Shown here in pieces: positions 18,971 to 41,378 of a stretch of DNA of 64,000 nucleotides. The DNA is from Actinopolymorpha cephalotaxi (GTDB lineage Bacteria; Actinomycetota; Actinomycetes; Propionibacteriales; Actinopolymorphaceae), in assembly GCF_013408535.1 (NCBI RefSeq), contig NZ_JACBZA010000001.1:992001-1056000 (forward strand), written 5' to 3'. A program made the position numbers and the translations under genes. The notes under the pieces were generated by a model that worked only from the letters and a program-made list of their open reading frames with translations, made no database searches and was not told where the DNA came from. Within the stretch, counting starts at the first letter, position 1; each line of letters begins with the position of its first letter.

Positions 18971-19987
18971 CTAGCTGTTGCGGGTCATGACGTTGGTGAC
19001 GGTCTGCCGGAGGCGTGAGGCGGGTGGTTGGTCGCCGGCGGCGGTGTGGGCTCGATGGTAGTTGTAGTGGATGTTCCACACCTGGATCGCCTGTGCGCGT
19101 TGGGTTTCGCTGGTCCACACCCGGGCGTAGAGGAGTTCTTCGGCGAGGGTGCGCTGGTATCTCTCGACTTTGCCGTTGTGGCGTGGTGTGTAGGGGCGGG
19201 TGCGCTGGTGACGTGAGGCGAATGCTGTCGCGGTCCGCACGAACGCCCCGGCCCGGTAGTTCGCACCGTTGTCTGTGACCAGGCGAGTGATCCGGACGAT
19301 GCCGTGGTCGGCGAAGAACGCACGGGCCCGGTGGAAGAAGCCGATCGACGTCTTCGCGGTCTCATCGGTCAGGTGTTCGGTGTAGGCCAGTCGGGAGAAC
19401 CCGTCCACCGCCGAGTGCAGGTAGACGTAGCCAGCCTTGGCTGCGCCCTTCTTCTTGGCCTTGGCGCGCTGGGCGGCTCGGTCAGCGTCGCTGCCGCGTC
19501 CGTGGGCCCGCCAGCCGCCGCCGTCGGGGATCCGGCCGACCTTCTTCACGTCCAGGTGCACCATGTGCCCCGGATAGCGGGCGGTGATCCGCTCCGGCCG
19601 CCGGTTCGACGCGCCAGTGGGGTCCAGGTCGCGGCGCCGGTTGAGACCCAGGCGGGCCAGCCACCGGCCCACGGTGGCGACAGAGACCCGGTGGCCGCGG
19701 TGGGCGAGCTCGGCGGCGATCTTGCGGGCGGACCACTTGTGCTCCCGGCGCCAGGTCTCGATCAGCTCCACCACCCCATCCGGGGTCTGGGACGGGGAGG
19801 AATGCGGCGCGGAGGACCGGTCGAGCAGACCGGCGTCGCCGCTGGCCCGGTAGCGGTTCACCCACTTCGACAGACACTGCCGCGACACGCCGGCCTCGGC
19901 GGCCACGTGGGCGATCGGGCGGGTCTGGCAGCGGGTGACAAGACGCAGCCGGCCGGCAGCAGTCAACGGGGCGCTAGCGTGGGACAC
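18971..19987 (-). CDS. IS481-family transposase, copy 1
   Basis: A 338-residue protein with an N-terminal helix-turn-helix (VAAEAGVSRQCLSKWVNRY), a second HTH (SARKIAAELAHRGHRVSVA) and an rve DDE domain with the Asp in MVHLDVKKVG, the Asp in RLVTDNGANY and the Glu in NGKVERYQRTLAEE. The length is usual for the family. The last codons are AAC-AGC-TAG: the final Ser and stop are read from the TCTAGC target duplication, not from the element. Confidence 0.93.
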   Translation of the reverse strand: MSHASAPLTAAGRLRLVTRCQTRPIAHVAAEAGVSRQCLSKWVNRYRASGDAGLLDRSSAPHSSPSQTPDGVVELIETWRREHKWSARKIAAELAHRGHRVSVATVGRWLARLGLNRRRDLDPTGASNRRPERITARYPGHMVHLDVKKVGRIPDGGGWRAHGRGSDADRAAQRAKAKKKGAAKAGYVYLHSAVDGFSRLAYTEHLTDETAKTSIGFFHRARAFFADHGIVRITRLVTDNGANYRAGAFVRTATAFASRHQRTRPYTPRHNGKVERYQRTLAEELLYARVWTSETQRAQAIQVWNIHYNYHRAHTAAGDQPPASRLRQTVTNVMTRNS

Positions 19988-20254: not shown

Positions 20255-22593
<2,339 letters not shown>

Positions 22594-22763: not shown

Positions 22764-25637
22764 ATGACGCCCGTGCACTTGAACACGGGGAAAGTGCCGG
22801 TCGGACCGGCTGCAAGTGTCTGGGCGAAGTCGAAGCGAGATGATGGCAGCTGGCTGGCGTTGTGGCGTCACCTGGACGATAGCGCCGCGGTTGCTGGTCG
22901 GCTGTGGGATGAGTGGCTGCCGCGTGCGGTCAAGCAGGTCATCAGTGCCGGCCTCCCAGCGGGGGAGGAGGACGGCCGCGTCCTGGCAGTGTGGCTGGCT
23001 GGGATTCATGACGTGGGGAAGGCAACCCCGGCGTTCTCGATCCAGGTCGAGCACTTGGCCGATCGGATGCGCGACCACGGCTTGGCTATGAGGCCTGACC
23101 CGGACCGGAAGCTCGTTCCCCACTCGACGGCGGGTCAGGTGCTGCTGGAGGACTGGCTCGCTGACATCTACGGCCTGGAGAAGGCAGATGCGCAGCAGTT
23201 CACCGTCGTGGTGGGCGGCCACCATGGTGTCCCACCCGAAAACGTCGACCTCAAGATTGTTCGAGACCGCGCATCTCTGCTCGGCGTTCGACGAGCACCT
23301 GAGGTCTGGCGTGAAGTACAGCGCCAGCTCCTCGACAGAACAGCGGACCTCACTGGGGCGTCGGAGCGCCTACCGCACTGGCGGGGTGTGCGGTTGTCCC
23401 AGCCGGCGCAGGCCCTGCTGATGGGCGTGGTGATCGTCGCCGACTGGATCGCGAGCAACGACGATCTGTTCCCCTATGACGTGCTCGAGCTGGACCAGCA
23501 GGAACGGCTTAAGGCGGCCTGGGATGAGCTTGACCTGCCCACGCCCTGGCAGGCTGTGGAGAGTACGGGCACGCCGGCGGAGACGTTCGCGGCGCGGTTC
23601 GAACTCCCTGATGAGGCGGTAATTCGGCCGGTACAGCAGGCTGCAGTCGAGCTCGCACGGTCTATGGAGGAGCCGGGGCTGCTGGTCATCGAAGCACCCA
23701 TGGGCGAGGGGAAGACGGAGGCGGCGCTGGCGGCTGCCGAGGTGTTCGCCGCCCGGTCAGGTGCGGGCGGAGTTTTTGTTGCGTTGCCGACGAGGGCGAC
23801 GAGCGATGCGATGTTCTCCCGGGTGTTGTCGTGGCTGGGCCGTCTACCGGACGCCGACGTTGAGCGCGGCGCACATGCTGTCGCGCTGGCGCATGGCAAG
23901 TCTCGGCTGAACGAGGAGTTCCACGAGCTCCTTCGGAAAGGCCGGAGCGTCTCAGTCGACGTTGACGGCTGCGCCCGGACCCAGGAGCTGGCAGCGCATC
24001 AGTGGCTGATGGGCCGGAAGAAGGCGATGCTGTCGTCTTTCGTGATCGGCACCGTCGACCAGCTGCTGTTCGGCGCGCTGAAAGCCAGACACGTCGTGCT
24101 CCGCCATCTGGGAATGGCCGGCAAGGTCGTGATCATCGACGAGGCACACGCCTACGACGTCTACATGAGCGAGTACCTGGACCGGGCGCTGGAATGGCTC
24201 GGCGCGTACCGCACTCCCGTGATCGTCTTGTCAGCGACACTGCCCGCCCAACGCCGCAAGGCGATGGTGGAGGCATACGACCGAGGACGCTCCGACCGGC
24301 CGACGCGACAGCGTGCCAGTGTGCGGCGTACGCCTCAGCCCGAAGCTGCTCCCGATCCCTACGCTGCGCTCGACGGTGACATCGGCTACCCCGTTCTCGT
24401 CGCTACGAGTGGGAACGCTCGTCCGGTCGTCCGCGTGACCGAGCCTTCGTCGAGAACGATCCAGGTCATCGTCGACCGCGCTGACGATGATCCAGTCGCA
24501 CTGGCGCAGATGCTTCGGGTGGAGTTGGAGGACGGTGGGTGCGCGCTGGTGGTCCGCAACACCGTGCGGCGTGTGCAGGAAACGGCTCGCGTCTTCGAGC
24601 AGATCCTAGGGAAGAGCCGGGTGTCGGTGGCGCACTCAAGGTTCCTGGCGCCGGACCGAGCGGCGAACGACAGGTGGCTTCGTGACAGCTTCGGCCCGCC
24701 ACAGCAGGACCAAGCCGACGACGGGTTGGCGCGACGGCCGCGGGGTCATGTGGTGGTTGCAAGTCAGGTCGCCGAGCAGTCATTGGACATCGACTTCGAC
24801 CTGCTCGTCACCGACCTTGCACCAGTTGACCTGGTGCTGCAGCGGATGGGCCGGCTGCACCGTCACGACCGCGCCGGCCGACCGGATCGGGTGGCAAGGC
24901 CGCGCTGCCTGATCACAGGAGTGGACTGGGCGTGCATGCCTCCTGAGCCAGTGCGGGGTTCGGTGACGGTCTACAAGCGGTACCCGCTGCTGCGCGCACT
25001 CGCGGTGTTGAAACCGTTCCTTGATGGTGAACCCATGCAGTTGCAATCGAGGATTGCGCCGCTCGTCCAGGACGCCTACGGGCCGGACGATATAGGGCCG
25101 GTCGAGTGGCAGTCGGCGCTGTTTGCTGCGCGCGAAGAATTCACCCGGATGCAGAAGGACAAGCGCAAGAAGGCTGACAGTTTTCGGCTCGCCGGCCCCG
25201 CGCAGGCCGGCACACCTTTGATCGGGTGGCTCCGCGCGAACGTCGGGGACCTGGGCGACGATGATCCCAAGGGGCGCGCGCAGGTGCGCGACACGCCCGC
25301 GGAGACAGTGGAAGTGCTGGTCGTCATGCGGCGATCCGACGGTACGCTCGCGACCGTTCCGTGGCTCGACAAGCATTCCGACATGGAACTTCCGGTCGAT
25401 CAACCGCCACCTCCGCAACTCGCCCGGACGGTGGCCTCGTGCACCCTCGCACTGCCTGTCGAGCTCAGTGGGCTACCGGTGCTCGAAGAGATCGAGCGGC
25501 TGGGGTGCATGCCTGGCTGGCGGCAAAGCCCGCTGCTCGATGAGCAGTTGGTGCTGATTCTGGACGAGGACGGTCGGGCCGCCATCCTCGATCACATGCT
25601 GCACTACGACCGACGGTTCGGATTCCGTGTGACTTGA
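22764..25637 (+). CDS. cas3: CRISPR-associated nuclease-helicase Cas3 (type I-E)
   Basis: A 957-residue protein with an N-terminal HD nuclease (H36, H82-D83 in GIHDVGKATPAFS, H153-H154 in GGHHGVP), then a superfamily 2 helicase: Walker A APMGEGKT (311-318), DEAH (459-462), and later motifs SATLP and QVAEQSLDIDFDLLVTDLAP with QRMGRLHRHDR. It unwinds and degrades target DNA after recruitment by Cascade. It follows array 1 by 170 bp and is separated from cse1 by 726 bp, so it probably has its own transcript. Confidence 0.97.
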   Translation: MTPVHLNTGKVPVGPAASVWAKSKRDDGSWLALWRHLDDSAAVAGRLWDEWLPRAVKQVISAGLPAGEEDGRVLAVWLAGIHDVGKATPAFSIQVEHLADRMRDHGLAMRPDPDRKLVPHSTAGQVLLEDWLADIYGLEKADAQQFTVVVGGHHGVPPENVDLKIVRDRASLLGVRRAPEVWREVQRQLLDRTADLTGASERLPHWRGVRLSQPAQALLMGVVIVADWIASNDDLFPYDVLELDQQERLKAAWDELDLPTPWQAVESTGTPAETFAARFELPDEAVIRPVQQAAVELARSMEEPGLLVIEAPMGEGKTEAALAAAEVFAARSGAGGVFVALPTRATSDAMFSRVLSWLGRLPDADVERGAHAVALAHGKSRLNEEFHELLRKGRSVSVDVDGCARTQELAAHQWLMGRKKAMLSSFVIGTVDQLLFGALKARHVVLRHLGMAGKVVIIDEAHAYDVYMSEYLDRALEWLGAYRTPVIVLSATLPAQRRKAMVEAYDRGRSDRPTRQRASVRRTPQPEAAPDPYAALDGDIGYPVLVATSGNARPVVRVTEPSSRTIQVIVDRADDDPVALAQMLRVELEDGGCALVVRNTVRRVQETARVFEQILGKSRVSVAHSRFLAPDRAANDRWLRDSFGPPQQDQADDGLARRPRGHVVVASQVAEQSLDIDFDLLVTDLAPVDLVLQRMGRLHRHDRAGRPDRVARPRCLITGVDWACMPPEPVRGSVTVYKRYPLLRALAVLKPFLDGEPMQLQSRIAPLVQDAYGPDDIGPVEWQSALFAAREEFTRMQKDKRKKADSFRLAGPAQAGTPLIGWLRANVGDLGDDDPKGRAQVRDTPAETVEVLVVMRRSDGTLATVPWLDKHSDMELPVDQPPPPQLARTVASCTLALPVELSGLPVLEEIERLGCMPGWRQSPLLDEQLVLILDEDGRAAILDHMLHYDRRFGFRVT

Positions 25638-25678: not shown

Positions 25679-25942
25679 TCAGACATCCTCGCCAGGGCTG
25701 GAAGGTAGGACTGGTTTGCGGGATCTTCTGCGGTTTGTGTCCGAGAGCGGCGCGTTCGAGTCCTGTCTGCGTCCACTGGAGTCGAGTAGTGCTGGAGCGA
25801 GGATGCGGATCGCCCGGATTCTGTCCCCAGCAAGCAGCACCAAGATGATAACGACTACCCCGATGACTAGCGCCCGGAGTGGTTTGGCTAGTAGCAGCAG
25901 CAGAGGCACGCTGACAGCCACCGTGGGAACGAGTTCAAGCAT
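25679..25942 (-). CDS. Possible small two-helix membrane protein
   Basis: An 87-residue frame starting MLELVPTVAVSVPLLLLL and continuing with a second hydrophobic stretch (LVIGVVVIILVLLAG), then a polar tail. Composition looks like a membrane protein. The ribosome site is weak and it lies antisense in the region after cas3. It may be a chance frame. If real, it would be a small membrane partner inside the CRISPR locus. Confidence 0.3.
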   Translation of the reverse strand: MLELVPTVAVSVPLLLLLAKPLRALVIGVVVIILVLLAGDRIRAIRILAPALLDSSGRRQDSNAPLSDTNRRRSRKPVLPSSPGEDV

Positions 25943-26123
25943 CCGTGGAACTCGCCATCCACCCCAGTGGGGTGCGCGTGCTCGCTCGCTTCCGGTAACT
26001 AGAAGGTGCCATGGCCTCGCGCATGGCTGTCCCATTGCTGTGCATCGTCGTGCCCACCCCGCAAGTTCAAAGCGTTCGTCAGTGATGTCATCTGCGCCGA
26101 AGACGTTGGCGCTACCTCGATCA

Positions 26124-26160
26124 GGCCACCTGCCGGACTGCATACGTCCGGCAGGTGGCC
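26124..26160. terminator. Strong 15-bp hairpin between cas3 and cse1
   Basis: GGCCACCTGCCGGAC (26124-26138) pairs perfectly with 26146-26160 around the 7-nt loop TGCATAC. This could end the cas3 transcript or a minus-strand one. There is no U-tract. Confidence 0.65.
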
Positions 26161-26210
26161 TGCACTGTCGCCCTCTTCATAGAGGGAGCACTTCGCCCTG
26201 CGGCTTGCCA

Positions 26211-26239
26211 CTGGGTCACTCCCGCACAAGCGGGAACCA
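26211..26239 (+). ncRNA. Solo CRISPR-repeat-like hairpin upstream of cse1
   Basis: TCCCGCACAAGCGGGA (26220-26235) has the same CCCGC/GCGGG stem with a 4-nt loop as the array repeats, and a similar overall length, but different flanks (GGTCAC before, ACCACG after). It lies about 130 bp before the cse1 start. It may be a degenerate repeat or a Cascade-binding regulatory RNA, or only a chance hairpin. Confidence 0.35.
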
Positions 26240-26368
26240 CGTTGCTGCGATTCGGACCGTACCACTATCGCATTACCCTACGGCTAGCCACCTTCAGAAA
26301 TTTTGGTATAGCCTCCCTCTCAGAGCGGCTTGCGGTTCTGAGTCGAGGATGACAACGGGGAGATGTCA

Positions 26369-28003
26369 ATGAGGGGACAGGCTTCGTTCGACCTGATTGA
26401 AGCGCCTTGGATCCGGGCGCTTCGACATGACGGTCGGCCGACCGAAGTGTCGATCCTGGAACTGTTCGGTTCGGCTGCGGAGTTGCGTTCGATCGTGGGT
26501 GAGGTACCCACCCAGACTTTCGCCACCGTCCGGCTGCTGCTGGCGATTCTGCATCGGGCGATCGATGGCCCGCAGACGACGGAGGACTGGCACGAGCTGT
26601 GGCGGTCCGGGGAGCTTCCGATGGAGGACATCACCGATTACCTCGATGGATTCCGGGACCGGTTCGATCTCCTGCACCCGCGGACGCCCTTCTATCAGGT
26701 CGCGGACCTTCACACGAGCAAGAACGAGTTCTTCGGCCTGGAGCGGTTGATCGCGGACGTGCCCAACGGTGAGCCGTTCTTCACCAGCCGAGTCAAGGAC
26801 GGGCTGACGCGGGTGTCGTTCGCGGAGGCTGCGCGGTGGGTGGTGCACTGTCAGGCGTTCGACCCGTCCGGCATCAAGTCTGGAGCGGTCGGGGACCCGA
26901 GGGTGAAGGGTGGCCGTGGCTACCCGATCGGCACTGGATGGTGTGGACGTCTCGGTGGGCTCTTCGCCGAAGGCCGCAACGTGCGGGAGACGCTGCTGCT
27001 GAATCTGAGCGGCGGGCTTTCCGAGGATGACCTGCCCGCTTGGGAACGCCCACCCTCCGACGCGCGGGAAGCCGACGTCGCCGGGCGCCCTGACGGGCAG
27101 GTGGATCTCTACACCTGGCAGAGCAGGCGCATCCGTCTGTTCGCTGATGCTGACGGTGTTTACGGCGTGCTGATCGCGAACGGCGACAAGCTGGATCCGC
27201 ACAACCTTCATGGGGTGGAGCCGTTGACGGCATGGCGGCGCAGCCCGGCGCAGGAGAAGGCCCGTAAGGAGCCGCTGGTCTACCTGCCGAGGACGCATGA
27301 CCCGGATCGCTCGTTGTGGCAGGGCCTGGGGGCTTTGCTGCCTAGCGCTACCGGTAGCCGCAGTAGCCGCGACGGCGCTACCGCGGTCGCCCCGGCGGTC
27401 CTGGAGTGGATCGCACAACTCGAGGTAGAAGGGCTCCTGGCTGGCGACTACGTAGTCCGTACCCGGGCGATCGGTATGGAGTACGGCAGTCAGGCCGCGA
27501 CGACAGCGGAGGTTTTCGACGACTCGTTGACGCTGGCGGCGGCCCTGCTGAAGGAGCAGGACACCGAGCTTGGCGCTTGTGCGGTCGGCGCGGTGGCCGA
27601 TGCTGAACGGGGTGTTCAGGCTCTTGGCAACCTGGCTTCGAACCTCGCGCAGGCTGCAGGTGACAGGCAACCTGGCGCGAGAGGCAAGGCGCACGAGCTT
27701 GGGTACTCGATGCTGGACGGCCCGTTCCGGTCGTGGCTGGCCGGCCTACGCACCGATACCGACATCCTGCAGGCCCGCCGGGAGTGGCAGCTGGCCGCCC
27801 GGCGAATCCTTGGCGACCTGGGACGCCAGATGGTCGCGGATGCCGGCCCGACCGCATGGGTGGGCCGTGAGGTCGATGACACACGCCCAGGCAAAGACAC
27901 GCGACACGTCAGCAGCCCGGAAGCCGACCTGTCGTTTCGCCGCCAGATTGCCAAAGCCTTCGAACTCGCCGGCAAACCAGACAGGGACGAGGTGCCAGCA
28001 TGA
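26369..28003 (+). CDS. cse1: Cascade large subunit Cse1 (CasA, Cas8e)
   Basis: About 544 residues. The N-terminal FDLIEAPWIRALRHDG, then VPTQTFATVRLLLAILHRAIDG and PRTPFYQVADL are the Cse1 hallmarks; length is in the family range. It recognises the PAM and recruits Cas3. ATG 26369 is favoured because ACGGGGAG lies 7 bp upstream; ATG 26363 is also possible. The stop overlaps the cse2 start (ATGA). It heads the seven-gene operon. Confidence 0.95.
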   Translation: MRGQASFDLIEAPWIRALRHDGRPTEVSILELFGSAAELRSIVGEVPTQTFATVRLLLAILHRAIDGPQTTEDWHELWRSGELPMEDITDYLDGFRDRFDLLHPRTPFYQVADLHTSKNEFFGLERLIADVPNGEPFFTSRVKDGLTRVSFAEAARWVVHCQAFDPSGIKSGAVGDPRVKGGRGYPIGTGWCGRLGGLFAEGRNVRETLLLNLSGGLSEDDLPAWERPPSDAREADVAGRPDGQVDLYTWQSRRIRLFADADGVYGVLIANGDKLDPHNLHGVEPLTAWRRSPAQEKARKEPLVYLPRTHDPDRSLWQGLGALLPSATGSRSSRDGATAVAPAVLEWIAQLEVEGLLAGDYVVRTRAIGMEYGSQAATTAEVFDDSLTLAAALLKEQDTELGACAVGAVADAERGVQALGNLASNLAQAAGDRQPGARGKAHELGYSMLDGPFRSWLAGLRTDTDILQARREWQLAARRILGDLGRQMVADAGPTAWVGREVDDTRPGKDTRHVSSPEADLSFRRQIAKAFELAGKPDRDEVPA

Positions 28004-28689
28004 CCACGACCACACAGGCACAAGCCGAGGAAGTCCCTCCGCAGCCGCCAAAACCGTCCCAGCCACGTGACCTGGCCAGGTTTGTGGCCAGCCGGGTAGC
28101 ACGTCTGCAACGCGAGTATTTGGACCACCGACCTGACGCTGCGGCCGCATTGGCGAAGCTCAGGCGCGGCGTGGGAAAGGAACCGGGGGCGGTTCCGGAG
28201 CTGTGGCAGCTCACCTTGGAGGGTGTTCCGCTGCCCGCCTGGTACACCGACGCCCCCACCGATTTCGAGAACGCCGCGTACGCCGCGCTGACCCTGTACG
28301 CGGTTCACCAGCAGTCCCGGCGTGAACCCATGCACCAGCCTGGGCAGGGACTTGGCGCGGCGGCACGAGTCCTGCGAGCACGTAAGAAGGCAGCAGGTGG
28401 CAGCGAGGACGCCGTGCGGCGGCGGTTCGAGGCCATCGGTACAGCCGTCAGTTTCAGCGAGGTCATGCACCACGGCCGCGCGCTGGTAACGCTCCTGCGG
28501 ACCCACAACGTGCCGTTGGACTACGGCCGGCTCGCACAGGACCTGGTGCTGCTGCAACGGCCAGGACGCGGGGACCAGGTGCGTCTTGCCTGGGGCCGCG
28601 ACTTCTACCAGGCCGGCAGCGAACCAACAGACCAAGACAACTCTGCGGCCACGGGGGCCGTAGCCGAAGACGGGGAGACCACCACATGA
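28000..28689 (+). CDS. cse2: Cascade small subunit Cse2 (CasB)
   Basis: A 229-residue, mostly helical protein. Recognisable parts are FVASRVARLQREYL, AYAALTLYAVHQQSR, GLGAAARVLRARKKA and the C-terminal DYGRLAQDLVLLQRPGRGDQVRLAWGRDFY that closes Cse2 proteins. Two copies line the crRNA-DNA filament in Cascade. The N-terminal Pro/Gln-rich stretch and C-terminal acidic tail are extensions. It overlaps cse1 and cas7 by 4 bp each. Confidence 0.95.
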   Translation: MTTTTQAQAEEVPPQPPKPSQPRDLARFVASRVARLQREYLDHRPDAAAALAKLRRGVGKEPGAVPELWQLTLEGVPLPAWYTDAPTDFENAAYAALTLYAVHQQSRREPMHQPGQGLGAAARVLRARKKAAGGSEDAVRRRFEAIGTAVSFSEVMHHGRALVTLLRTHNVPLDYGRLAQDLVLLQRPGRGDQVRLAWGRDFYQAGSEPTDQDNSAATGAVAEDGETTT

Positions 28690-29813
28690 GCCGAACGATC
28701 ATCGACATCCACGTCCTGCAGACGGTGCCGCCGTCGAACCTCAACCGAGACGACACCGGCAGCCCGAAGACTGCCGTCTACGGGGGAGTCCGCAGGTCCA
28801 GGGTGTCCAGTCAGGCATGGAAACACGCCGTCCGCGACAAGTTCGAGACCGAGCTCGACGACAGCGACCTCGGCATGCGGACCAGGCACGTGGTCGAGGT
28901 ATTGGACAGACGGATCCGTGAACGGGCACCCGAACTGGCCGACCGGGCCGAAGAGTTGGCGAAGGCCACCTTCAAGGCGGTCGGGATCAAGACGTCTGCG
29001 GCGAAGAAGGAGGAGCCTGAACAGTCCGGTTACCTCGTGTTCTTGAGCAGCCGCCAGTACGACAATCTCGCCGATGCCGCTGCCTCCGCTGCAAGAGCCG
29101 GCGGGAACCTGGACAAGGCGCTGAAGGAACGCGACGTGAAGGCGCTTGCCGATCGCGAGCACTCCATCGACGTCGCACTGTTCGGCCGAATGGTCGCCGA
29201 CGTGTCCGACATCAACGTCGAGGCCGCGGCTCAGGTCGCACATGCCATCAGCGTGCACGCGGTGGACAACGAGTACGACTACTTCACCGCGGTCGATGAC
29301 CACGATGAGGACGAGGAGCGGACCGGTGCGGGGATGATCGGCACCGTGGAGTTCAACTCCGCCACCCTCTACCGCTACGCGGCCGTGGACGTGGATCGCC
29401 TGGCGGAGACACTGGGCAGCCCTGAGGCGGCCCAACGCGCCGTGGAGGCCTTCGCCCGCACCTTCGTGACCAGTATGCCGACCGGGAAGATCACCACGTT
29501 CGGCAACCGCACCTTGCCCGACGCGGTCCTGGTCCGGTTGCGGGAGACGCAGCCGATCAGCTTCGTCGGCGCGTTCGAGGAGCCCGTCACGGCCGGCACG
29601 TCTGCTGGCCGTCTCAGCCAGGCCGCCATCCGGCTTGCCGAGTACGCGGTGGAAGTGGAGCGTAAGTACGACCAGCCCCCGGCTGCGTCGTGGGTCGTTC
29701 ACGTCGGTCGCGCCACCGAAGCGCTCGCCGGCCTTGGCCAGGACGGCACCCTCGACGAACTGGTGAAGGGCGTCGGGGACGAGGTTGCTCAGCGGTTGGC
29801 GGGGACAGCGTGA
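28686..29813 (+). CDS. cas7e: Cascade backbone subunit Cas7e (Cse4, CasC)
   Basis: A 375-residue RAMP protein. TIIDIHVLQTVPPSNLNRDDTGSPK and GGVRRSRVSSQAWKHAVR are the Cas7e N-terminal signature, and GMIGTVEFNSATLYRYAAVD and TSMPTGKITTFGNRTLPDAV are later conserved parts. Six copies form the filament on the crRNA. It overlaps cse2 (ATGA) and cas5e (GTGA), so expression is coupled. Confidence 0.96.
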   Translation: MSRTIIDIHVLQTVPPSNLNRDDTGSPKTAVYGGVRRSRVSSQAWKHAVRDKFETELDDSDLGMRTRHVVEVLDRRIRERAPELADRAEELAKATFKAVGIKTSAAKKEEPEQSGYLVFLSSRQYDNLADAAASAARAGGNLDKALKERDVKALADREHSIDVALFGRMVADVSDINVEAAAQVAHAISVHAVDNEYDYFTAVDDHDEDEERTGAGMIGTVEFNSATLYRYAAVDVDRLAETLGSPEAAQRAVEAFARTFVTSMPTGKITTFGNRTLPDAVLVRLRETQPISFVGAFEEPVTAGTSAGRLSQAAIRLAEYAVEVERKYDQPPAASWVVHVGRATEALAGLGQDGTLDELVKGVGDEVAQRLAGTA

Positions 29814-30517
29814 CGGGGCTCGTCCTTAGGCTCGCCGGACCCCTGCAGTCGTGGGGGTCCCGGAGCCGGTTCGTCCGGCGTGAGACCGAGCGGGCGCCCA
29901 CGAAGTCCGGTGTCATCGGGATCCTCGCCGCGGCGCGGGGGATGCGGCGGACCGATGACCTGACCGAGCTGCTCGGGCTCCGTTTCGCTGTCCGGGTCGA
30001 TCAGCCGGGCACGCTGATCCGCGACTTCCAGACTGCCCGCTCTCTTGACGGCAGTCGGGCGATGCCGTTGTCGTATCGGCACTACATGGCCGACGCGGTC
30101 TACGTCGCAGTGCTGGAGGGGGACTGTCAGCTCCTGGCCGGGCTGGACGCCGCGCTCCGCGCTCCGGTGTTCCCGCTCTACCTGGGCCGGCGCTCCTGCC
30201 CACCTGTCCAACCACTCAGCTTGGGCGTTCGCGACGGAAGCCTCACCGAGGTGATCAGTGCCGTGTCGTGGCAGGCGTCGCAGTGGTATCGACGTCGGCG
30301 TCGAGAGCCACAAGTGAGCCTGGAGGTGATTCGCGATGCACATCCAGACGAGCAGGGGGATGTCGTCCGTGATGAGCCGGAGAGCTTCGATCCACAACGT
30401 CGGGAGTACGGGTGGCGGCCCGTCGTACGGGAAACCGTGTCACTCACCAACCCTGACATCTCCGATTCCGTTGCCGAACAGTTCGGGCACGACCCGATGG
30501 CCCTGTTGGGAGGATGA
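29810..30517 (+). CDS. cas5e: Cascade subunit Cas5e (CasD)
   Basis: A 235-residue RAMP protein starting TGLVLRLAGPLQSWGSRSRF, the Cas5e signature, then ERAPTKSGVIGILAAARGMRR. It caps the 5' handle of the crRNA. The GTG at 29810 overlaps the cas7e stop; a longer frame to 29690 lies inside cas7e. A glycine-rich loop and the LYLGRRSCPP segment fit the family. Confidence 0.94.
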   Translation: MTGLVLRLAGPLQSWGSRSRFVRRETERAPTKSGVIGILAAARGMRRTDDLTELLGLRFAVRVDQPGTLIRDFQTARSLDGSRAMPLSYRHYMADAVYVAVLEGDCQLLAGLDAALRAPVFPLYLGRRSCPPVQPLSLGVRDGSLTEVISAVSWQASQWYRRRRREPQVSLEVIRDAHPDEQGDVVRDEPESFDPQRREYGWRPVVRETVSLTNPDISDSVAEQFGHDPMALLGG

Positions 30518-30520
30518 GCG

Positions 30521-31249
30521 GTGTTCCTCACCCGCTTCCAGATCAATCCGCAACGTCGCGACGCGCGTCGGCTGCTGACTTCACCGCAGGCGATGCACGC
30601 CGCGGTACTGAACGGCTTCCCGTCGCGCCAGGACCACGCCGACGGCAGGGTCTTGTGGCGGCTCGACCGCTCCGGCGCCCACGAGGTCCTGCTGTACATC
30701 TCGAGCCCAACAGCGCCCGACCTGACGCACTTGATGGAGCAGGCTGGATGGCCCACCATTCAGACCTGGCAGACCCGCCCGTACGACAAGTTCCTGGCCA
30801 CACTCGAACGGGGCCAGCACTGGGCCTTCCGCCTCACCGCCAACCCGGCCCGCAGCGGAACCAAACCAAGGCCCGACACCACGAAGGAGAAGCCTGCTGA
30901 GCAGCCCGACCCTAAGGCAGGTGCAGACCAGTCGGAGGGGAAGAATCGGTCGTCCCAGCGGTTCGGACACGTGACCGTCAGCCAACAGCACGACTGGCTG
31001 CTGCAACGTGCCGAACGAAACGGATTCCGTGTCCTGCTCGGAACCATGGATGAACCGGACGTGATCATTCGCGAACGGTCCACCCTCAACTTCCAGCGCA
31101 ACGGCTCGCGGGTGACGATCCGCCAAGCGACCTACGACGGCCGGCTGGAGGTCGTCGACCCGGACGCGCTACGCCGCGTCATGATGTCCGGCCTAGGGCA
31201 CGGCAAGGCCTACGGGTGTGGTCTGCTAACCGTGGCGCCGACCGAATGA
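30521..31249 (+). CDS. cas6e: crRNA-processing endonuclease Cas6e (CasE)
   Basis: A 242-residue double-RRM protein. H26 in TSPQAMHAAVLNGFP matches the catalytic histidine position of Cas6e, and GLGHGKAYGCGLLTV is the C-terminal glycine-rich loop. It cuts each repeat at the base of its palindromic hairpin and stays bound to the 3' end. GTG 30521 follows GGGAGG by 8 bp. Residues about 105-140 form a charged, low-complexity insert (KPRPDTTKEK and on). Confidence 0.95.
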   Translation: MFLTRFQINPQRRDARRLLTSPQAMHAAVLNGFPSRQDHADGRVLWRLDRSGAHEVLLYISSPTAPDLTHLMEQAGWPTIQTWQTRPYDKFLATLERGQHWAFRLTANPARSGTKPRPDTTKEKPAEQPDPKAGADQSEGKNRSSQRFGHVTVSQQHDWLLQRAERNGFRVLLGTMDEPDVIIRERSTLNFQRNGSRVTIRQATYDGRLEVVDPDALRRVMMSGLGHGKAYGCGLLTVAPTE

Positions 31250-32220
31250 CAGGCCCGCCCGGAACGCCGCCACCGCGGCTGCCTGAACTCGTCCGGGCGC
31301 AGGACAGGCTCTCGTTCATCTACGTCGAACGTTGCATCGTCCACCGTGACAGCAACGCGATCACCGCAACCGACGAACGAGGAACGGTGCACATACCGGC
31401 GGCCTCCCTCGGTGCCCTGCTGATCGGGCCAGGCACCAGAGTCACCCACCAGGCCATGATGCTCCTGGCGGAGAGCGCTTCGACCGCTGTGTGGGTCGGT
31501 GAACGCGGAGTCCGCTACTACGCCCACGGTCGATCGCTCGCGAACTCCACAAGGTTGCTCGAAGCTCAAGCGGCGGCGGTCTCTCACCGAGACCGCCGCC
31601 TGGCCGTCGCCCGGGCCATGTACGCCCTGCGGTTCCCCGACGAGGAAGACGTCGCCGGGCTGACGATGCAGCAGTTGCGTGGTCGAGAAGGCGTCCGCGT
31701 CCGCCGGCTGTACCGCGAGCACGCCGAGCGGACCGGCGTCAGCTGGGAAAGCCGTCGTTACGACATGGACAACTTCGCGTCCGGAGATGTCGTCAACCAG
31801 GCCCTGTCCGCGGCGCATACCAGCCTCTACGGGGTGTGCCACGCCGTGATCGTGGCGCTCGGTTGTGCTCCCGGCCTCGGGTTCGTCCACACCGGCCATG
31901 AACGCTCGTTCGTCTACGACGTCGCCGACCTGTACAAGGCGGAGATGACCATTCCGATCGCGTTCGACATTGCAGCATCAGTGCCCGCCGAAGTCGCGGG
32001 CGAGACTCGTCGAGCCGTGCGTGGGCGGCTCCACGATGGTCTCTTCCTTCAGCGATGCGTGCGCGATATCCGGCGCCTGCTGTTGTCGGAGGAGGATCCG
32101 GTGACCAACGGGCAGGAACACCTCGAGACAAGCATCGTCAGACTGTGGGACGAGAAGGTAGCGCCGATCGAGGGCGGTACAAACTACGCGTACGAATCCG
32201 ACGACGAGGTCGACTTCTGA
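31246..32220 (+). CDS. cas1: Spacer integrase Cas1e
   Basis: A 324-residue Cas1 of the I-E type: RLSFIYVERCIVHRDSNAIT, GPGTRVTHQAMMLLAES, RREGVRVRRLYREHAERTG-like segment (GREGVRVRRLYR), and the metal site region GFVHTGHERSFVYDVADLYK with the conserved His and Asp. It joins new spacers at the leader end with Cas2. The ATG at 31246 overlaps the cas6e stop (ATGA). The C-terminal tail is acidic (YAYESDDEVDF). Confidence 0.96.
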   Translation: MTGPPGTPPPRLPELVRAQDRLSFIYVERCIVHRDSNAITATDERGTVHIPAASLGALLIGPGTRVTHQAMMLLAESASTAVWVGERGVRYYAHGRSLANSTRLLEAQAAAVSHRDRRLAVARAMYALRFPDEEDVAGLTMQQLRGREGVRVRRLYREHAERTGVSWESRRYDMDNFASGDVVNQALSAAHTSLYGVCHAVIVALGCAPGLGFVHTGHERSFVYDVADLYKAEMTIPIAFDIAASVPAEVAGETRRAVRGRLHDGLFLQRCVRDIRRLLLSEEDPVTNGQEHLETSIVRLWDEKVAPIEGGTNYAYESDDEVDF

Positions 32221-32615
32221 TGACCGTCATCGTCCTGACAGCCTGCCCTGCAGGCCTTCGCGGCCACCTCACGCGGTGGCTTCTTGAGATCTCCGCCGGC
32301 GTCTTCGTCGGCAACGTGACGTCCAGAGTCCGTGACCTCATGTGGGCACGCGTCATCGAGCTATCCGGGCAAGGTCGAGCGCTGATGGTGTACAGCACCG
32401 ACGGCGAGCAACGGCTCCAGTTCAAGGTCCACGAACATCATTGGAAACCCGTCGACTACGACGGTGTCATGCTCATCCGCCGCCCGCCCAGTCACGACTT
32501 GGCGTCACCGTCGAGTGGCCGGACCGGCTGGAGCAAGGCAGTTAAACGGAAGCGCTTCGGAAAGCAGGCAGCCCGTCGCACCAGCACACCCCCATCTCCA
32601 GGGAAGGGGCCCTGA
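32220..32615 (+). CDS. cas2: Cas2e with basic C-terminal extension
   Basis: A 131-residue protein. MTVIVLTACPAGLRGHLTRWL and SAGVFVGNVTSRVRDLMW are the Cas2e hallmarks, and HEHHWKPVDYDGVMLIRRP ends the core near residue 95. The last 35 residues (WSKAVKRKRFGKQAARR and on) are strongly basic and beyond the usual core. It overlaps the cas1 stop by one base (TGATG). Its own stop is the first part of the array 2 leader. Confidence 0.94.
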   Translation: MTVIVLTACPAGLRGHLTRWLLEISAGVFVGNVTSRVRDLMWARVIELSGQGRALMVYSTDGEQRLQFKVHEHHWKPVDYDGVMLIRRPPSHDLASPSSGRTGWSKAVKRKRFGKQAARRTSTPPSPGKGP

Positions 32616-32665
32616 AAGTGATTGAGAATCGCCACGAGCCATAGCAAACCCGCAGGTCAAGAAGT
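32615..32665 (+). promoter_or_regulatory. Leader of CRISPR array 2
   Basis: AAAGTGATTGAGAA (32615-32628) and GCAGGTCAAGAAGT (32652-32665) match array 1 leader motifs, with the same 51-bp distance to the first repeat. The leader begins at the cas2 stop codon, so the array may be read through from the cas operon. Confidence 0.78.
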
Positions 32666-34343
32666 GTGCTCCCCGCGTACGCGGGGGTGATCCGTCGTTC
32701 GCGCCCAGTTCGATCAGGAAACACGAGTGCTCCCCGCGTACGCGGGGGTGATCCGATCGCCGCCATGAAGGAAACCCTGTCCACCCTGTGCTCCCCGCGT
32801 ACGCGGGGGTGATCCGCCGAAGAGTCGGACGTAGTCCTGGCGCCGGTTGTGCTCCCCGCGTACGCGGGGGTGATCCGAACGACTGCCAGGCCCGGCACGA
32901 GATCGAAGCGTGCTCCCCGCGTACGCGGGGGTGATCCGTACCGCGGCAAGGGAAGCACCACCGGAAACGCGTGCTCCCCGCGTACGCGGGGGTGATCCCT
33001 CCAACCGGAACACCGCGGCGTTAGAGAGGTTGTGCTCCCCGCGTACGCGGGGGTGATCCGTTCAGGCACGCCGACCAGGTGTCGCCGCTGACGTGCTCCC
33101 CGCGTACGCGGGGGTGATCCGTTGAACCGCGCCCATCCCGCCCGCCCCGGGAGGTGCTCCCCGCGTACGCGGGGGTGATCCGCTCCCGCGTAACCCCGTC
33201 ACCCCGCAGAGCAGGTGCTCCCCGCGTACGCGGGGGTGATCCGTCGTAGTCCTGGATAGCGGTCATGGAGAGCCCGTGCTCCCCGCGTACGCGGGGGTGA
33301 TCCGGCTGGCGCTGTCCTGCTCCGACAGCGCGGCCTGTGCTCCCCGCGTACGCGGGGGTGATCCGATCACGGGGCATCACGTGCTGCGCCACTGCTAGTG
33401 CTCCCCGCGTACGCGGGGGTGATCCGAAGGCCTGCGGGTCGGTGCCGCCGTTGCCGAGCGTGCTCCCCGCGTACGCGGGGGTGATCCGGACCGCGACATG
33501 GTGGACACCCTGGAGACGGGGTGCTCCCCGCGTACGCGGGGGTGATCCGTGCCATGCGGGTGCCCTCCTGGGGCTGGGAGAGTGCTCCCCGCGTACGCGG
33601 GGGTGATCCTGACAGCGCCCCGAGTGCGCCCAACGCGCTGACGTGCTCCCCGCGTACGCGGGGGTGATCCGCGCCGGCGGTGCGCACAGTGACGTTCGGG
33701 AACGTGCTCCCCGCGTACGCGGGGGTGATCCGGTCTTGTTCTTCTCGAACAGCAGGATCAGGCCGTGCTCCCCGCGTACGCGGGGGTGATCCGAACTGGG
33801 ACCGCCTGTCCGACGCAGTGCGCCGGTGCTCCCCGCGTACGCGGGGGTGATCCGGCCGATCACCTCGGCCGCGCGGGCGGTCACTCGTGCTCCCCGCGTA
33901 CGCGGGGGTGATCCGCGCCGAGCCTCTCGGCGTCAGGCGCCTCGACCGTGCTCCCCGCGTACGCGGGGGTGATCCGCCGCAGAGGCCGCCGAGGTCGCCA
34001 AAGCGCACGTGCTCCCCGCGTACGCGGGGGTGATCCGGATCCGCCGGTCGCACCGGCGCCCGTGGTCGCGTGCTCCCCGCGTACGCGGGGGTGATCCGGC
34101 CTGCTACCGGTGGAACCCTTACGACCTCGGGTGCTCCCCGCGTACGCGGGGGTGATCCGTTGTTGCGTTCCCGCCGACGCTCGAGCTCTGCGTGCTCCCC
34201 GCGTACGCGGGGGTGATCCGGACCCGATGTGGGGGCAGGAAGTCGCCAAGCCGTGCTCCCCGCGTACGCGGGGGTGATCCGTCGTGGTCGTCCCACACGT
34301 AGGCCAGCGGCGCCGTGCTCCCCGCGTATGTGGGGGTGATCCG
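32666..34343 (+). CRISPR. Type I-E CRISPR array 2: 28 repeats, 27 spacers
   Basis: It uses the same 29-bp repeat as array 1 (GTGCTCCCCGCG to GGGGTGATCCG) with 32-33-bp spacers. Repeats are nearly perfect: the one at 32971 ends in C, the one at 33582 in T, and the last at 34315 reads GCGTATGTGGGGG. The single degenerate last repeat marks the right end as the trailer. The array has less decay than array 1. Confidence 0.98.
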
Positions 34344-36386: not shown

Positions 36387-36918
36387 GGAACCTGTCTCCC
36401 GTTCTCTTCATTCGGTGATGGGTGACAGGACCGGCCGGTGGGCACAGCTCAGTTGGGGCGACGCCACGCTCCTATCAAGCCACGCCGGCCGGTCCAGCAG
36501 GACCCGGACGGCCGCACAACTGGACATGGCCACCAACGGCACAGAGTGGTGGAGCGAGCCAGCCGAGCCCTGCACGTCACCTTGACACTGAGCAGAGTGG
36601 TGTATCGCTGACGCCTTGGACGCGCAGATGATGACTGTTCGAGCTCTCTTGGAGGACCGACGACGGCTCGCAAATCCTGACTCAGGGGACACGGCCCGGG
36701 TGAAGGAGTAGGTGGATGCGGGCTTGCGTGCCGGGCACGGTGTCGTCGACACAAGGCCTCCACAACAGCGTGTCCCTCTGAGTAGGACCCGCGGTAGCCG
36801 GCCCCATGCGAGCGAGAGTCTTCCACGTCCACACCACCCGCAGACCCGGTGCGTGCCGGTGCCTCGGTTTGATTGTTTGACTGTTTCAGGCGCTCTGTCC
36901 GTTCTAGGTTTGGGAGTT
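36387..36918. other. Structured region between the IS110 transposase and the caspase gene
   Basis: No gene is supported. GGACCGGCCGG (36428-36438) and its complement CCGGCCGGTCC (36485-36495) could form an 11-bp stem with a 46-nt apical part. In the IS110 group the bridge RNA is encoded on the 5' side of the transposase, so this is a candidate site for it on the minus strand. The rest (36600-36918) should hold the caspase gene promoter; no clear -35/-10 pair was seen. Confidence 0.35.
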
Positions 36919-39900
36919 ATGGGGGACCGGCGGTTGGTGTTGGTGGTGGGTTCGCAGTGCGCGGCGTTGGGTCGGCCGCTGTCGTTCTTGCCGGACGCCC
37001 CGGGTCCTGTGGAGCCGGCCGGCTTGCCGGCTCGGCAGCGGCTGGTCCTGGGGTTACTTGATCTGCTGGTGGACGGGCCGGGTGGGTGTGCGCCGGTGTC
37101 CGTGAAGTGTGAGTCGGCTCCCGGGCTGCTGCTGAACCCGACGAAGGCGGTCGCGGATGCGGCGTTGTTGGCGGCTTTGCAGCAGGCCGATGAGCTGCAG
37201 GCAGTGCTGGTGGTGCATTTCGTGGGGCACGGCAGCCGGCACCAGGACGATCCCGCGGCGCCGGCACGGCATCTGCTGCATGTTTGGGACACGGTCGCCA
37301 AGCCGGTGGACACCGAGCCGGAGAGCAACGGCTGGGACCCCTATGAACTGATCCGGCGACGGCGCAACCATCTACCTAACATCGTGGGTCTGGTACTGCT
37401 GGTGGACGCGTGCTACGCGTCGTGGGCCAAGCAGCAGGTGGACGCCTGGAGCGGGGTGCAAGGCGGGCTGCTGTCCGCGTGGCTGGGTTCTTCGGGGGAC
37501 CAGCCGGCGTGGGATGGGTGTTTCACCAAGACGCTGGTCCAGGTGCTCGGGCAGGGCCTGGACGTGGCCGAGCACCCCCGCAGGGCGCTAGTGCCGGACC
37601 TGCTGGCCAGCGACCTGGAGCCGGTGCTGACGGGCTGCCAGGACCAGGCGCCGCGGCTGGGTGGGTTCGAAAGCCACAATCCGGTGCTGTTCGTAGCCCG
37701 CAACCGGCGGGCTAGCCAGCTGGGGGCCGCGCTGGGTGTGGATGCGGGCACCGAGACGCTGCTGCTGCGGCTGACAGAGAGCTACGTGACCTTCGCGGTG
37801 GACATGGTCACCGATTCAATCCGAGCCCATCGGGTCACTGCGGTGGTCGGGGGTCCAGGGGCGGGGAAGTCGACGCTGGCGGCGGCGCTGCGGCACCCGC
37901 CGGCCAGCGTGGAGAAGGTGCCGCTGGGACTGGTGCATGCCGTCGGGTTCATGGCGGTGGCATCCTCCGTGCCGGAGCTGGCCGCCACGTTGCGGGGGCA
38001 GCTGCAGAAGCTGGCCTGGTTCCCTGAAGTCGCGCGCCGGTACTGGCAGGCTAACGCCGCACGGTGGGATGACCTGGATCCGTGGCAGCGGCTCACCGGG
38101 CCGCTCAGCCTGTACCCCGATCCGGTCCGGCTGCTCGTGGACGGGTTGGACCAGCTCGAGGGCCAGCCCGGCTATCCCGAGGTTCTGCACGCGCTCCAGG
38201 CACTCGTCGACGACCCGGCGCTGGGCCACGTGAAGCTGGTGCTGGTCGGTCGTAGTGTGCCTGCCCTGGGCGGCGTCGACGCCGTCGTCGACATGCCGGT
38301 CCTCGATGTGAACACCGCGACCCGCTACCTGCACGCGCGCGGCGTGCTGGATCCCGGGACCGTGGAGTGGCTGGTGCAAGTGGCGGCCGGGAACTGGCTG
38401 GTGCTTGATCTTGCTGCTACCACCGTCAGCAGCGTCGCGGGAGGCGCGGGCTTCCCGGAGGACCAGGCGGCTCTCTACACCCAGCTGCTGGACCAGATCC
38501 GGACCCGACACGGTGGTGTGGTTGACGTGGTCATGGCGTTGCTCGCGGCCGCGGGGACCGGGCCTGTGCTCCCGTTCGACCTGCTGCACGCCACCCTCGT
38601 CGTCCTGGGCCAGCCGCTGACCCGCGCCGACCTGTACCTGCTGCTCGGCGACGTCGACCTGCACCGGCTGCTGGACCGCTCCAACACCGGGCGGGCCGAC
38701 GAACATCTCGGACTGTTCCACCAGACCCTGGGCGACTACCTCACCACCCACCCGCGCCCCGGGACCCCGGCGGCGCCCGCGGTGCATGCCGCGATCATCC
38801 ACGCCCTCGACCAACAGGCCCCGGCAACCAAGCACACCCCCGGCAGCTACCGCGATGACCCGCTGCTCACCTACGCATTCGATGTCGGCCCCCGCCATCG
38901 CCACGAAGCCGGACGCGACGACAGCCTGGTCGCTGACCTGACCCGCGATGACCCTGTCCCGCGCGTAAACCTCACTCGCTGGACCACCTGGGCATCCGTC
39001 ATCCTTGACGCGCTCGGCTGCGACCACCCCGACACCCTCACCACCCGCAGCATCATCGCCTACTGGACCGCCCAGACTGGCGATCCAAGCGAGGCGCTGC
39101 GCCTGTTACGGCAACTGCTGCCCGACCAGGAACGGGTCCTCGGCCGCGACCACCCCGACACCCTCACCACCCGCAACAACATCGCCCATTCGACCGGCGA
39201 GACCGGCGACCCAAGCGAGGCGCTGCGCCTGTACCGAGAACTGCTGCCCGACCGGGAACGGGTCCTCGGCCGCGACCACCCCGACACCCTCACCACCCGC
39301 AATAACATCGCCAGCTGGACCGGGCAGACGGGCGACCCAAGCGAGGCGCTGCGCCTGTTTCGGCAACTGCTGCCCGACCGGGAACGGGTCCTCGGCCGCG
39401 ACCACCCCGACACCCTCGCCACCCGCGGCAACGTCGCCAGCTGGACCGGCGAGGCCGGTGACCCGAGCGAGGCGCTGCGCCTGTTTCGGCAACTGCTGCC
39501 CGACCGGGAACGGGTCCTCGGCCGCGACCACCCCGACACCCTCACCACCCGCAATAACATCGCCAGCTGGACCGGGCAGACGGGCGACCCAAGCGAGGCG
39601 CTGCGCCTGTTTCGGCAACTGCTGCCCGACCGGGAACGGGTCCTCGGCCGCGACCACCCTGACACCCTCGCCACCCGCGGCAACGTCGCCAGCTGGACCG
39701 GCGAGGCCGGTGACCCGAGCGAGGCGCTGCGCCTGTTTCGGCAACTGCTGCCCGACCGGGAACGGGTCCTCGGCCGCGACCACCCCGACACCCTCATCAC
39801 CCGCGGCAACGTCGCCAGCTGGACCGGCGAGGCCGGTGACCCGAGCGAGGCGCTGCGCCTGTTTCGGCAACTGCTGCCCGACCGGGAACGGGTCCTCGGC

Positions 39901-40344
39901 CGCGACCACCCTGACACCCTCGCCACCCGCGGCAACGTCGCCAGCTGGACCGGCGAGGCCGGTGACCCGAGCGAGGCGCTGCGCCTGTTTCGGCAACTGC
40001 TGCCCGACCGGGAACGGGTCCTCGGCCGCGACCACCCCGACACCCTCATCACCCGCGGCAACGTCGCCAGCTGGACCGGCGAGGCCGGTGACCCGAGCGA
40101 GGCGCTGCGCCTGTTACGGCAACTGCTGCCCGACCACGAACAGGTCCTCGGCCGCGACCACCCCGACACCCTCATCACCCGCGGCAACATCGCTCACTGG
40201 ACCGGCGTGACAGGCCAACCGGACGAGGCGCTGCGCCTGTTACGGCAACTGCTGCCCGACCGGGAACGGGTCCTCGGCCGCGACCACCCCGACACCCTCA
40301 CCACCCGCAACAGCATCGCCTACCTGACCGGCACGATCGAATGA
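36919..40344 (+). CDS. Caspase-like / STAND NTPase / TPR protein
   Basis: An 1141-residue protein in three parts. Residues 1-260 look like a caspase-fold peptidase with His104 in VVHFVGHGSRH and Cys165 in LLVDACYAS. Residues about 290-560 are a P-loop NTPase with Walker A GGPGAGKST (311-319) and Walker B LLVDGLDQLE (405-414), of the STAND/NACHT type. Residues 703-1141 are eleven 42-residue TPR units, each starting HPDTL. ATG 36919 is chosen; the frame is open upstream without coding character. Such peptidase-STAND-repeat proteins act as invader sensors or in cell suicide in multicellular bacteria. Function here is inferred. It points at the Cys-rich/TM pair at 42507-43471. Confidence 0.85.
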   Translation: MGDRRLVLVVGSQCAALGRPLSFLPDAPGPVEPAGLPARQRLVLGLLDLLVDGPGGCAPVSVKCESAPGLLLNPTKAVADAALLAALQQADELQAVLVVHFVGHGSRHQDDPAAPARHLLHVWDTVAKPVDTEPESNGWDPYELIRRRRNHLPNIVGLVLLVDACYASWAKQQVDAWSGVQGGLLSAWLGSSGDQPAWDGCFTKTLVQVLGQGLDVAEHPRRALVPDLLASDLEPVLTGCQDQAPRLGGFESHNPVLFVARNRRASQLGAALGVDAGTETLLLRLTESYVTFAVDMVTDSIRAHRVTAVVGGPGAGKSTLAAALRHPPASVEKVPLGLVHAVGFMAVASSVPELAATLRGQLQKLAWFPEVARRYWQANAARWDDLDPWQRLTGPLSLYPDPVRLLVDGLDQLEGQPGYPEVLHALQALVDDPALGHVKLVLVGRSVPALGGVDAVVDMPVLDVNTATRYLHARGVLDPGTVEWLVQVAAGNWLVLDLAATTVSSVAGGAGFPEDQAALYTQLLDQIRTRHGGVVDVVMALLAAAGTGPVLPFDLLHATLVVLGQPLTRADLYLLLGDVDLHRLLDRSNTGRADEHLGLFHQTLGDYLTTHPRPGTPAAPAVHAAIIHALDQQAPATKHTPGSYRDDPLLTYAFDVGPRHRHEAGRDDSLVADLTRDDPVPRVNLTRWTTWASVILDALGCDHPDTLTTRSIIAYWTAQTGDPSEALRLLRQLLPDQERVLGRDHPDTLTTRNNIAHSTGETGDPSEALRLYRELLPDRERVLGRDHPDTLTTRNNIASWTGQTGDPSEALRLFRQLLPDRERVLGRDHPDTLATRGNVASWTGEAGDPSEALRLFRQLLPDRERVLGRDHPDTLTTRNNIASWTGQTGDPSEALRLFRQLLPDRERVLGRDHPDTLATRGNVASWTGEAGDPSEALRLFRQLLPDRERVLGRDHPDTLITRGNVASWTGEAGDPSEALRLFRQLLPDRERVLGRDHPDTLATRGNVASWTGEAGDPSEALRLFRQLLPDRERVLGRDHPDTLITRGNVASWTGEAGDPSEALRLLRQLLPDHEQVLGRDHPDTLITRGNIAHWTGVTGQPDEALRLLRQLLPDRERVLGRDHPDTLTTRNSIAYLTGTIE
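39025..40330 (+). repeat. Eleven tandem 126-bp TPR-coding repeats
   Basis: The HPDTL codons recur at exactly 126-bp steps from 39025 to 40285. Units 3-6 alternate two types (NNIASWTGQTG and GNVASWTGEAG), giving a 252-bp higher-order repeat, and units 6-9 repeat the GNVASWTGEAG type with only Ala/Ile changes. DNA identity is very high, including silent sites, so the repeats were copied recently or are kept alike by gene conversion. Confidence 0.92.
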
Positions 40345-40877: not shown

Positions 40878-41378
40878 GTGGTGAATCTTCGTGCTCAGGC
40901 CTCCGCGGGAGCGGCCGATGGCGTGGTCAGCCGGCTCGATCCGCAGATTCGTGTGATTCGACAGCTCCCCCTGTGCCAGTGGCGGGCCTGGTCAGGTTGG
41001 TGCCGTGCTGGTGCGCGCGGTTGATCGTCGAGTCCACGCTGACCGACCAGTCGATGTCACCGGCCGCGTCGGCGTGCGCGAGCAGCGCGGTGTGGATCCG
41101 GTCCCAAGTGCCGTCGCCGCAGAACCGGCGATGCCGCTTCCAGACCGTCTGCCACGGCCCGAACCGCTCCGGCAGGTCACGCCAGGCGATGCCGGTCCGG
41201 AACCGGTACACGACACCCTCCACGATCGTGCGGTGCTCCCGAAACCTGTTGCCCCGCTTGCCGTCCGAGGACGGCATCAAGGGCTCGATCAGCTCCCACT
41301 CGGCATCGGACAGCACGGCTGAACGCGACATCGGTCAACCATCGCAGCCCGGAAGACCGACATTCAGGAGACACGCCC
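40428..41378 (-). mobile_element. IS5-family (IS427-type) insertion sequence, copy 2
   Basis: A 951-bp near-copy of the element at 13924. It is flanked by TA repeats at 40426-40427 and 41379-41380 within CTAG. The right junction, GCCC-TAG-G, produced a new CCTAGG into which IS481 copy 2 inserted. The target CTAG was the stop codon of the membrane protein gene now ending at 42507. Confidence 0.92.
40927..41331 (-). CDS. IS5-family transposase OrfA, copy 2
   Basis: A 134-residue N-terminal transposase half with the DNA-binding region and first catalytic Asp (VSVDSTINRAH). It differs from copy 1 in a few residues (AEWELIEPLMP, REHRTIVEGVV). It keeps the same frame break and the same G5 run, so the split is a property of the element and not a random mutation. 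Confidence 0.88.
   Translation of the reverse strand: MSRSAVLSDAEWELIEPLMPSSDGKRGNRFREHRTIVEGVVYRFRTGIAWRDLPERFGPWQTVWKRHRRFCGDGTWDRIHTALLAHADAAGDIDWSVSVDSTINRAHQHGTNLTRPATGTGGAVESHESADRAG

Follow-up and report, generated by a model that had tools for sequence, protein, structure and literature searches.

Regulatory mini-arrays, the subject of work by Shmakov et al. in 2023, are said to contain two repeat-like units and a spacer with partial complementarity either to cargo toxin genes or to the promoter of cas8. According to a review that covers CreR RNAs (PMC12737573), these repress cas operons in types I and V-A. For the type I-B CreA RNA, another study (PMC8501985) describes a seed made up of positions 1 to 5 and 7 to 11, with positions 6 and 12 dispensable and outside the pairing. 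AAN is given as an effective PAM of the Streptomyces avermitilis I-E system (PMC12231136). CreR, CreA, and regulatory mini-arrays are already known, and a type I-E CreTA has been published (PMC12055562); the element described here would add another case. A literature search whose coverage did not include the Shmakov 2023 survey found no paper on CreR or CreA in actinomycetes, and absence is not proven by that search. We analyzed a 64,000-nucleotide stretch of the Actinopolymorpha cephalotaxi genome, referred to here as the window, in which an original prediction had pointed to a hairpin between cas3 and cse1.

Results

The window carries a complete type I-E operon, with all genes on the plus strand: cas3 (22764 to 25637, with its stop codon at 25637), the first Cascade gene, cse1 (cas8e; 26363 to 28003, with the ATG at 26363 and an alternative ATG start at 26370), cse2, cas7, cas5, and cas6e (28000 to 31249), and cas1 and cas2 (31216 to 32615). 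CRISPR array 1 (20255 to 22593, plus strand) has a 28- to 29-nt repeat and a 61-nt period, and array 2 (32665 to 34343, plus strand) has the identical repeat, GTGCTCCCCGCGTACGCGGGGGTGATCCG; the array spacers are ~32 nt long. Comparison of the array 1 spacers with phages, done to read the PAM, gave no usable match. Two near-identical transposase-like genes (338 amino acids each, named by eye) on the minus strand, at 18971 to 19987 and 41378 to 42394, bracket the whole CRISPR-cas region. Adjoining array 2 is a gene for a large protein (36712 to 40344, plus strand). This protein has tetratricopeptide repeats (126-bp repeats in the DNA), a P-loop, and a stretch with weak resemblance to caspases, and its top NCBIfam match, FxSxx_TPR, is slightly under the cutoff.

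Between cas3 and cse1 lies a gap of 725 bp, and the predicted hairpin, CCCGC-ACAA-GCGGG, is indeed present there (26221 to 26234 on the plus strand) and is repeat-like. Its orientation had been misread: identity to the array repeat is 21/29 on the minus strand (26240 to 26212), versus 14/29 on the plus strand. Hence, the guide part points toward cas3 (26211 to 26192) rather than toward cse1. We call this minus-strand sequence, GTGGTTCCCGCTTGTGCGGGAGTGACCCA (26212 to 26240), psi-repeat 1 (R1). The runner-up site on the minus strand of the gap has 14/29 identity. Among 5,000 dinucleotide-shuffled gaps, a 21/29 match alone arose in 3, and a 21/29 match with a 6-bp stem in register arose in none; elsewhere in the 64 kb, the arrays excepted, there is one other 21/29 site, without a proper stem. 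Minus-strand RNA at R1 folds into the stem of the repeat (z score, −3.5), and R1 would yield a crRNA-like 5′ handle, GTGACCCA. Compared with our own type I-E consensus, the handle is matched at 8/8 positions in R1, a value that is partly selected, since the repeat score itself includes the handle. R1 is thus a degenerate CRISPR repeat with stem and 5′ handle that adjoins cas genes, as in CreR.

The hairpin had been described as solitary, in an otherwise empty gap, a picture that changes on both counts. Directly after R1 is a 20-nt psi-spacer, GTGGCAAGCCGCAGGGCGAA (26192 to 26211, minus strand), and 20 nt on from R1 is another hairpin, GTGCTCCCTCTATGAAGAGGGCGACAGTG (26163 to 26191, minus strand), that has a 6-bp stem and a 4-nt loop in repeat register. 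Its identity to the repeat is 13/29, with the first 8 bases and the stem kept and the handle lost (2/8 to the same consensus); it is probably a second repeat (R2). Directly after R2 comes a perfect 17-bp stem with a 7-nt loop (26122 to 26162, minus strand), which is terminator-like, without a T-run, and was not among the results of a terminator scan. It could end the mini-array transcript. The gap also contains a target site and a minus-strand open reading frame (ORF) with two hydrophobic segments, both described below. Near-identical repeats and a uniform spacer length, the marks of an ordinary array, were not found: R1 and R2 share 10/29 positions, and the spacer is 20 nt long, versus ~32 nt in the arrays.

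Within the gap, the psi-spacer matches best at minus-strand positions 26291 to 26276, where GTGGCtAGCCGtAGGG agrees with the spacer sequence GTGGCaAGCCGcAGGG at 14/16 positions, with mismatches at positions 6 and 12 only. A 5′-AAG-3′ PAM (26292 to 26294, minus strand) adjoins this target and ends 12 bp before a −10-like TATAGC box (26307 to 26312, plus strand; judged by eye), and ~70 bp separate the beginning of the target from the cse1 start. A consensus promoter scan of the gap detected no sigma-70-type promoter; the cse1 promoter is therefore a putative one, placed by position and by the TATAGC box. Two further features expected of a CreR were found here: a spacer partly complementary to a PAM-flanked site (26294 to 26276, 14/16) at the putative cse1 promoter, and pairing that is confined to the PAM-proximal part, ending after position 16, with mismatches at positions 6 and 12, the bases that are flipped out by type I Cascade. 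The original prediction had placed the guide in the bases 3′ of the hairpin on the plus strand; it missed both spacer and target. A 9-mer common to the spacer and positions 26325 to 26333, GCGGCTTGC, was rejected as a target, because it does not fit the PAM register and the site at 26291 to 26276 is far better.

We scored targets over positions 1 to 5, 7 to 11, and 13 to 14. These positions follow published rules; the condition of an AAN PAM was set only after the first matches had been seen, and it agrees with AAN as a PAM of the S. avermitilis I-E system (PMC12231136). The window target scores 12/12, with the PAM AAG. None of 300 shuffled spacers and none of 62 array spacers equaled this score in the window gap. 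When the spacer was removed and the gap was shuffled 20,000 times, a 12/12 site arose in 7 shuffles with any PAM and in 0 with an AAN PAM. Across the genome (6.86 Mb), the 14-base pattern GTGGCNAGCCGNAG occurs four times: as the spacer, as the target, and at two other sites, which are preceded by CTC and GGG and hence have no AAN PAM.

No other match and no other Cse1 were found in the genus Actinopolymorpha (6 genomes) or in its family (8 genomes). The cse1 loci used for comparison came from 43 of 391 genomes of the order, 52 of 394 of the class, 89 of 390 of the family of genome G619, 76 of 341 of the family of genome G494, and 50 of 392 of one genus, with 9 further loci from a contig collection; most of a low-scoring Cse1 lineage (~33 to 38% identity) and some other matches were left out. 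In total, 237 loci were examined, at least 5 of which are duplicates, from a genome present in two of the collections (e.g., L036 and L096). Directly upstream of cse1 in 232 of the 237 loci is cas3, mostly overlapping or abutting, and cas3 and cse1 are 100 bp or more apart in 12 loci, representing 11 genomes. For recurrence, we required a repeat-like score of at least 16 and, within the same stretch, an AAN-flanked site that scores 11/12 or better. None of 220 gapless control loci passed this rule, despite 573 repeat-like matches there, whereas 9 of the 17 loci that either have a gap or lack a detected cas3 did so: L004 (the window), L036 and L096 (both from one Pseudonocardia oroxyli genome), L088, L064, L223, L215, L110, and L181. 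They represent eight genomes, i.e., 7 of the 11 gap genomes plus the genome of L181, which has no detected cas3. With a stricter score of 17.9, L088 and L110 dropped out and the controls remained at 0. Not every recurrent case counts as independent: similar membrane-protein ORFs occur in L064, L223, and L215, and L088 and L096 are from one genus.

Target and mini-array share a strand in each of the eight genomes, and the PAM is AAC in seven and AAG in the window. Per locus, the numbers of shuffled spacers reaching the observed score were 0, 1, 0, 0, 0, 1, 2, and 0 of 300, and array spacers reached it in one locus only (L215; 1 of 62). Spacer length is 20 to 22 nt in six of the genomes and 32 to 33 nt in two. 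The gap loci that failed were L083, L109, L042, and L120, the last of which has a true array in the gap; L054, L114, L142, and L183 failed among the loci without cas3, with less than 220 bp upstream in L142 and L183; in L054, a real array lies upstream of cse1. L083 and L109 each have a single hairpin, for which no target was found, also when handle lengths of 6 to 9 were tried. Repeat-like hairpins inside the cas3 coding sequence of L006/L040 and L158 were discarded. As to conservation in related loci, the exact element is not conserved in the genus or family, but the kind of element recurs, with different sequences. In L064, the 3′ end of cas3 is apparently present twice, at about −755 and −60 relative to cse1, flanking the inserted gap, which suggests that the module was inserted there together with a duplication of the cas3 3′ end.

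The targets fall into two arrangements. In the window, L088, and L096, the target adjoins a TATAG box ahead of cse1; the gap is only ~200 bp in L088 and in L036/L096, two loci of one genus. The minus-strand targets of L064, L223, and L215 lie close to the start of a small membrane-protein ORF, and the L181 target, on the plus strand, lies ahead of such an ORF. On the plus strand of L110, the target is followed in turn by the mini-array, a strong stem, and a small ORF, the order seen in the window. By sequence organization, the cse1-proximal group (the window, L088, and L096) resembles CreR, and the ORF-proximal group resembles CreTA or a protein-toxin form of it. The minus-strand membrane ORFs of L064, L223, and L215 are similar to one another (~70 to 90 amino acids; WIRWILV...IFWLGL...LPLGG), and their products are candidate Cascade-repressed toxins; the two that were scanned had no family match. 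NCBIfam gave nothing for four of five other small ORFs and a below-cutoff match to SecE for the fifth.

The ORF of the window lies on the minus strand at 25942 to 25679, beyond the strong stem, and could encode a small membrane protein of 87 amino acids with two hydrophobic segments. Its coding signal is weak: GC content at third positions is 0.64, versus 0.78 in cas3 and cse1. There was no match to it in Pfam or NCBIfam, 57 genomes gave weak matches with no convincing relatives, and it had no detectable similarity to the membrane ORF of L064, the one such ORF with which it was compared. Between the TATAGC box and cse1 is a 7-codon ORF only.

Discussion

We conclude that the window element is probably a CreR-type regulatory mini-array, whose guide RNA would repress the Cascade operon of this type I-E system. 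There is strong support, from the PAM-flanked target and from the same combination in 7 other genomes, for the proposal that a degenerate repeat near the cas genes gives a CreA- or CreR-type RNA directing Cascade to a promoter. A minus-strand transcript would carry R1, the psi-spacer, and R2 and would end at the 17-bp stem; Cas6e would cut it to release a crRNA-like RNA that consists of the GTGACCCA handle and a 20-nt guide, the predicted RNA beginning with GUGACCCA ahead of the guide. Cascade carrying this RNA is expected to bind the matching sequence at 26291 to 26276 on the minus strand, beside the AAG PAM. Pairing over ~16 nt is too little for a full R-loop, so that, judging from published work on CreA, the promoter would be occupied but left uncut by Cas3. 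Since the target immediately precedes the TATAGC box of the putative cse1 promoter, Cascade would act as a repressor of its own operon. A shortage of Cascade, its inhibition by anti-CRISPRs, or its occupation by ordinary crRNAs would relax this repression.

A CreTA-type addiction module, in which the RNA and Cascade repress a toxin so that loss of Cascade harms the cell, is an unlikely reading of the window that we retain because of the minus-strand ORF. Its toxin might be the two-helix protein encoded at 25942 to 25679, expressed by read-through from the mini-array promoter, or a very short peptide or an RNA made from the interval that separates the TATAGC box from cse1. The order of elements in L110 and the position of the targets in L064, L223, L215, and L181, just ahead of or near the start of a small membrane-protein ORF and not at cse1, are consistent with such a module, as is the Citrobacter rodentium I-E CreTA, an experimentally supported module in the cas3/casA gap with an RNA antisense to the toxin (PMC12055562). 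However, the window target leads straight into cse1, with nothing longer than 7 codons between them, and the psi-spacer has no target at the minus-strand ORF, whose weak codon signal and lack of a family match or convincing relatives in 57 genomes also argue against a toxin.

Two further readings deny the element a role in guiding Cascade. Decay of an ordinary array, or a leftover spacer unit, would explain the strong degeneration of R2 and the short spacer, and real arrays do occur at this position, in the gap of L120 and upstream of cse1 in L054. Nothing would lead a functionless remnant to match a PAM-flanked site in its own gap with mismatches at positions 6 and 12 only, or to do so in eight genomes versus 0 of 220 controls, and we consider this origin very improbable. 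Least credible is a hairpin with no link to CRISPR that simply terminates transcription or binds a protein; it would fit the terminator-like 17-bp stem but leaves both the 21/29 in-register repeat match and the target unexplained.

We made a side observation in E. coli K-12 MG1655 (locus L256; NC_000913.3). The cas3-casA gap of this strain contains, antisense to casA, a repeat-like hairpin with 19/29 identity to the type I-E array repeat and an identical 5′ handle, ATAAACCG. For the spacer after this hairpin, the best site in the gap is AAG-TTATTcGTtTTATT, which matches at 11/12 of the scored positions; an equally good site with a canonical PAM was obtained for 3 of 1,000 shuffled spacers. The repeat is unchanged across four aligned strains, and the region is present in 1,126 of 5,426 E. 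coli genomes. The hairpin and its spacer are possibly a CreR-like element, on which a literature search found nothing.

E. coli Cascade loses two Cas7 units when the guide is shortened by 12 nt. We offer, as a speculation that we think more apt to fail than to hold, a general scheme in which actinobacterial I-E systems have repeatedly and independently opened the cas3-cse1 junction for a Cascade-guided self-control unit. The guide, ~12 nt short in six of the eight genomes (20 to 22 nt), would produce a smaller Cascade able to bind but not to license Cas3, and the unit would serve either to repress Cascade or to silence a small membrane toxin; in the window, one Cascade footprint would control both the cse1 promoter and a divergent guide-RNA promoter. 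More concretely, a predicted guide, PAM, and target in each of eight genomes make a candidate that can be tested with reporters in Streptomyces. The cas3-cse1 gap, absent from most such operons, is the place where these units occur, and the combination of a repeat-like hairpin with an AAN-flanked self-match of at least 11/12 provides a sequence rule for finding more.

The window element is like the mini-arrays reported by Shmakov et al. 2023 in having two repeat-like units and a partly complementary spacer. With the Haloarcula CreTA (PMC8501985), it shares the series of psi-repeat, psi-spacer, and psi-repeat, predicted pairing at positions 1 to 5 and 7 to 11 with 6 and 12 dispensable, and a PAM; that system differs in being archaeal, of type I-B, and equipped with an RNA toxin. 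Closer in type is the I-E CreTA of C. rodentium, for which the published report (PMC12055562) likewise places the module in the cas3/casA gap, with the guide RNA on the opposite strand and the target near a promoter beside an I-E PAM (ATG in C. rodentium). There, a translated 96-bp toxin ORF follows the promoter, whereas in the window cse1 itself does so. Although the window unit is antisense to the operon that it would repress, it is like the Cascade- or Cas12a-guiding CreR (reviewed in PMC12737573) in its predicted crRNA-like RNA from degenerate repeats, its partial PAM-flanked match at the putative promoter of the first Cascade gene, and its lack of a clear toxin.
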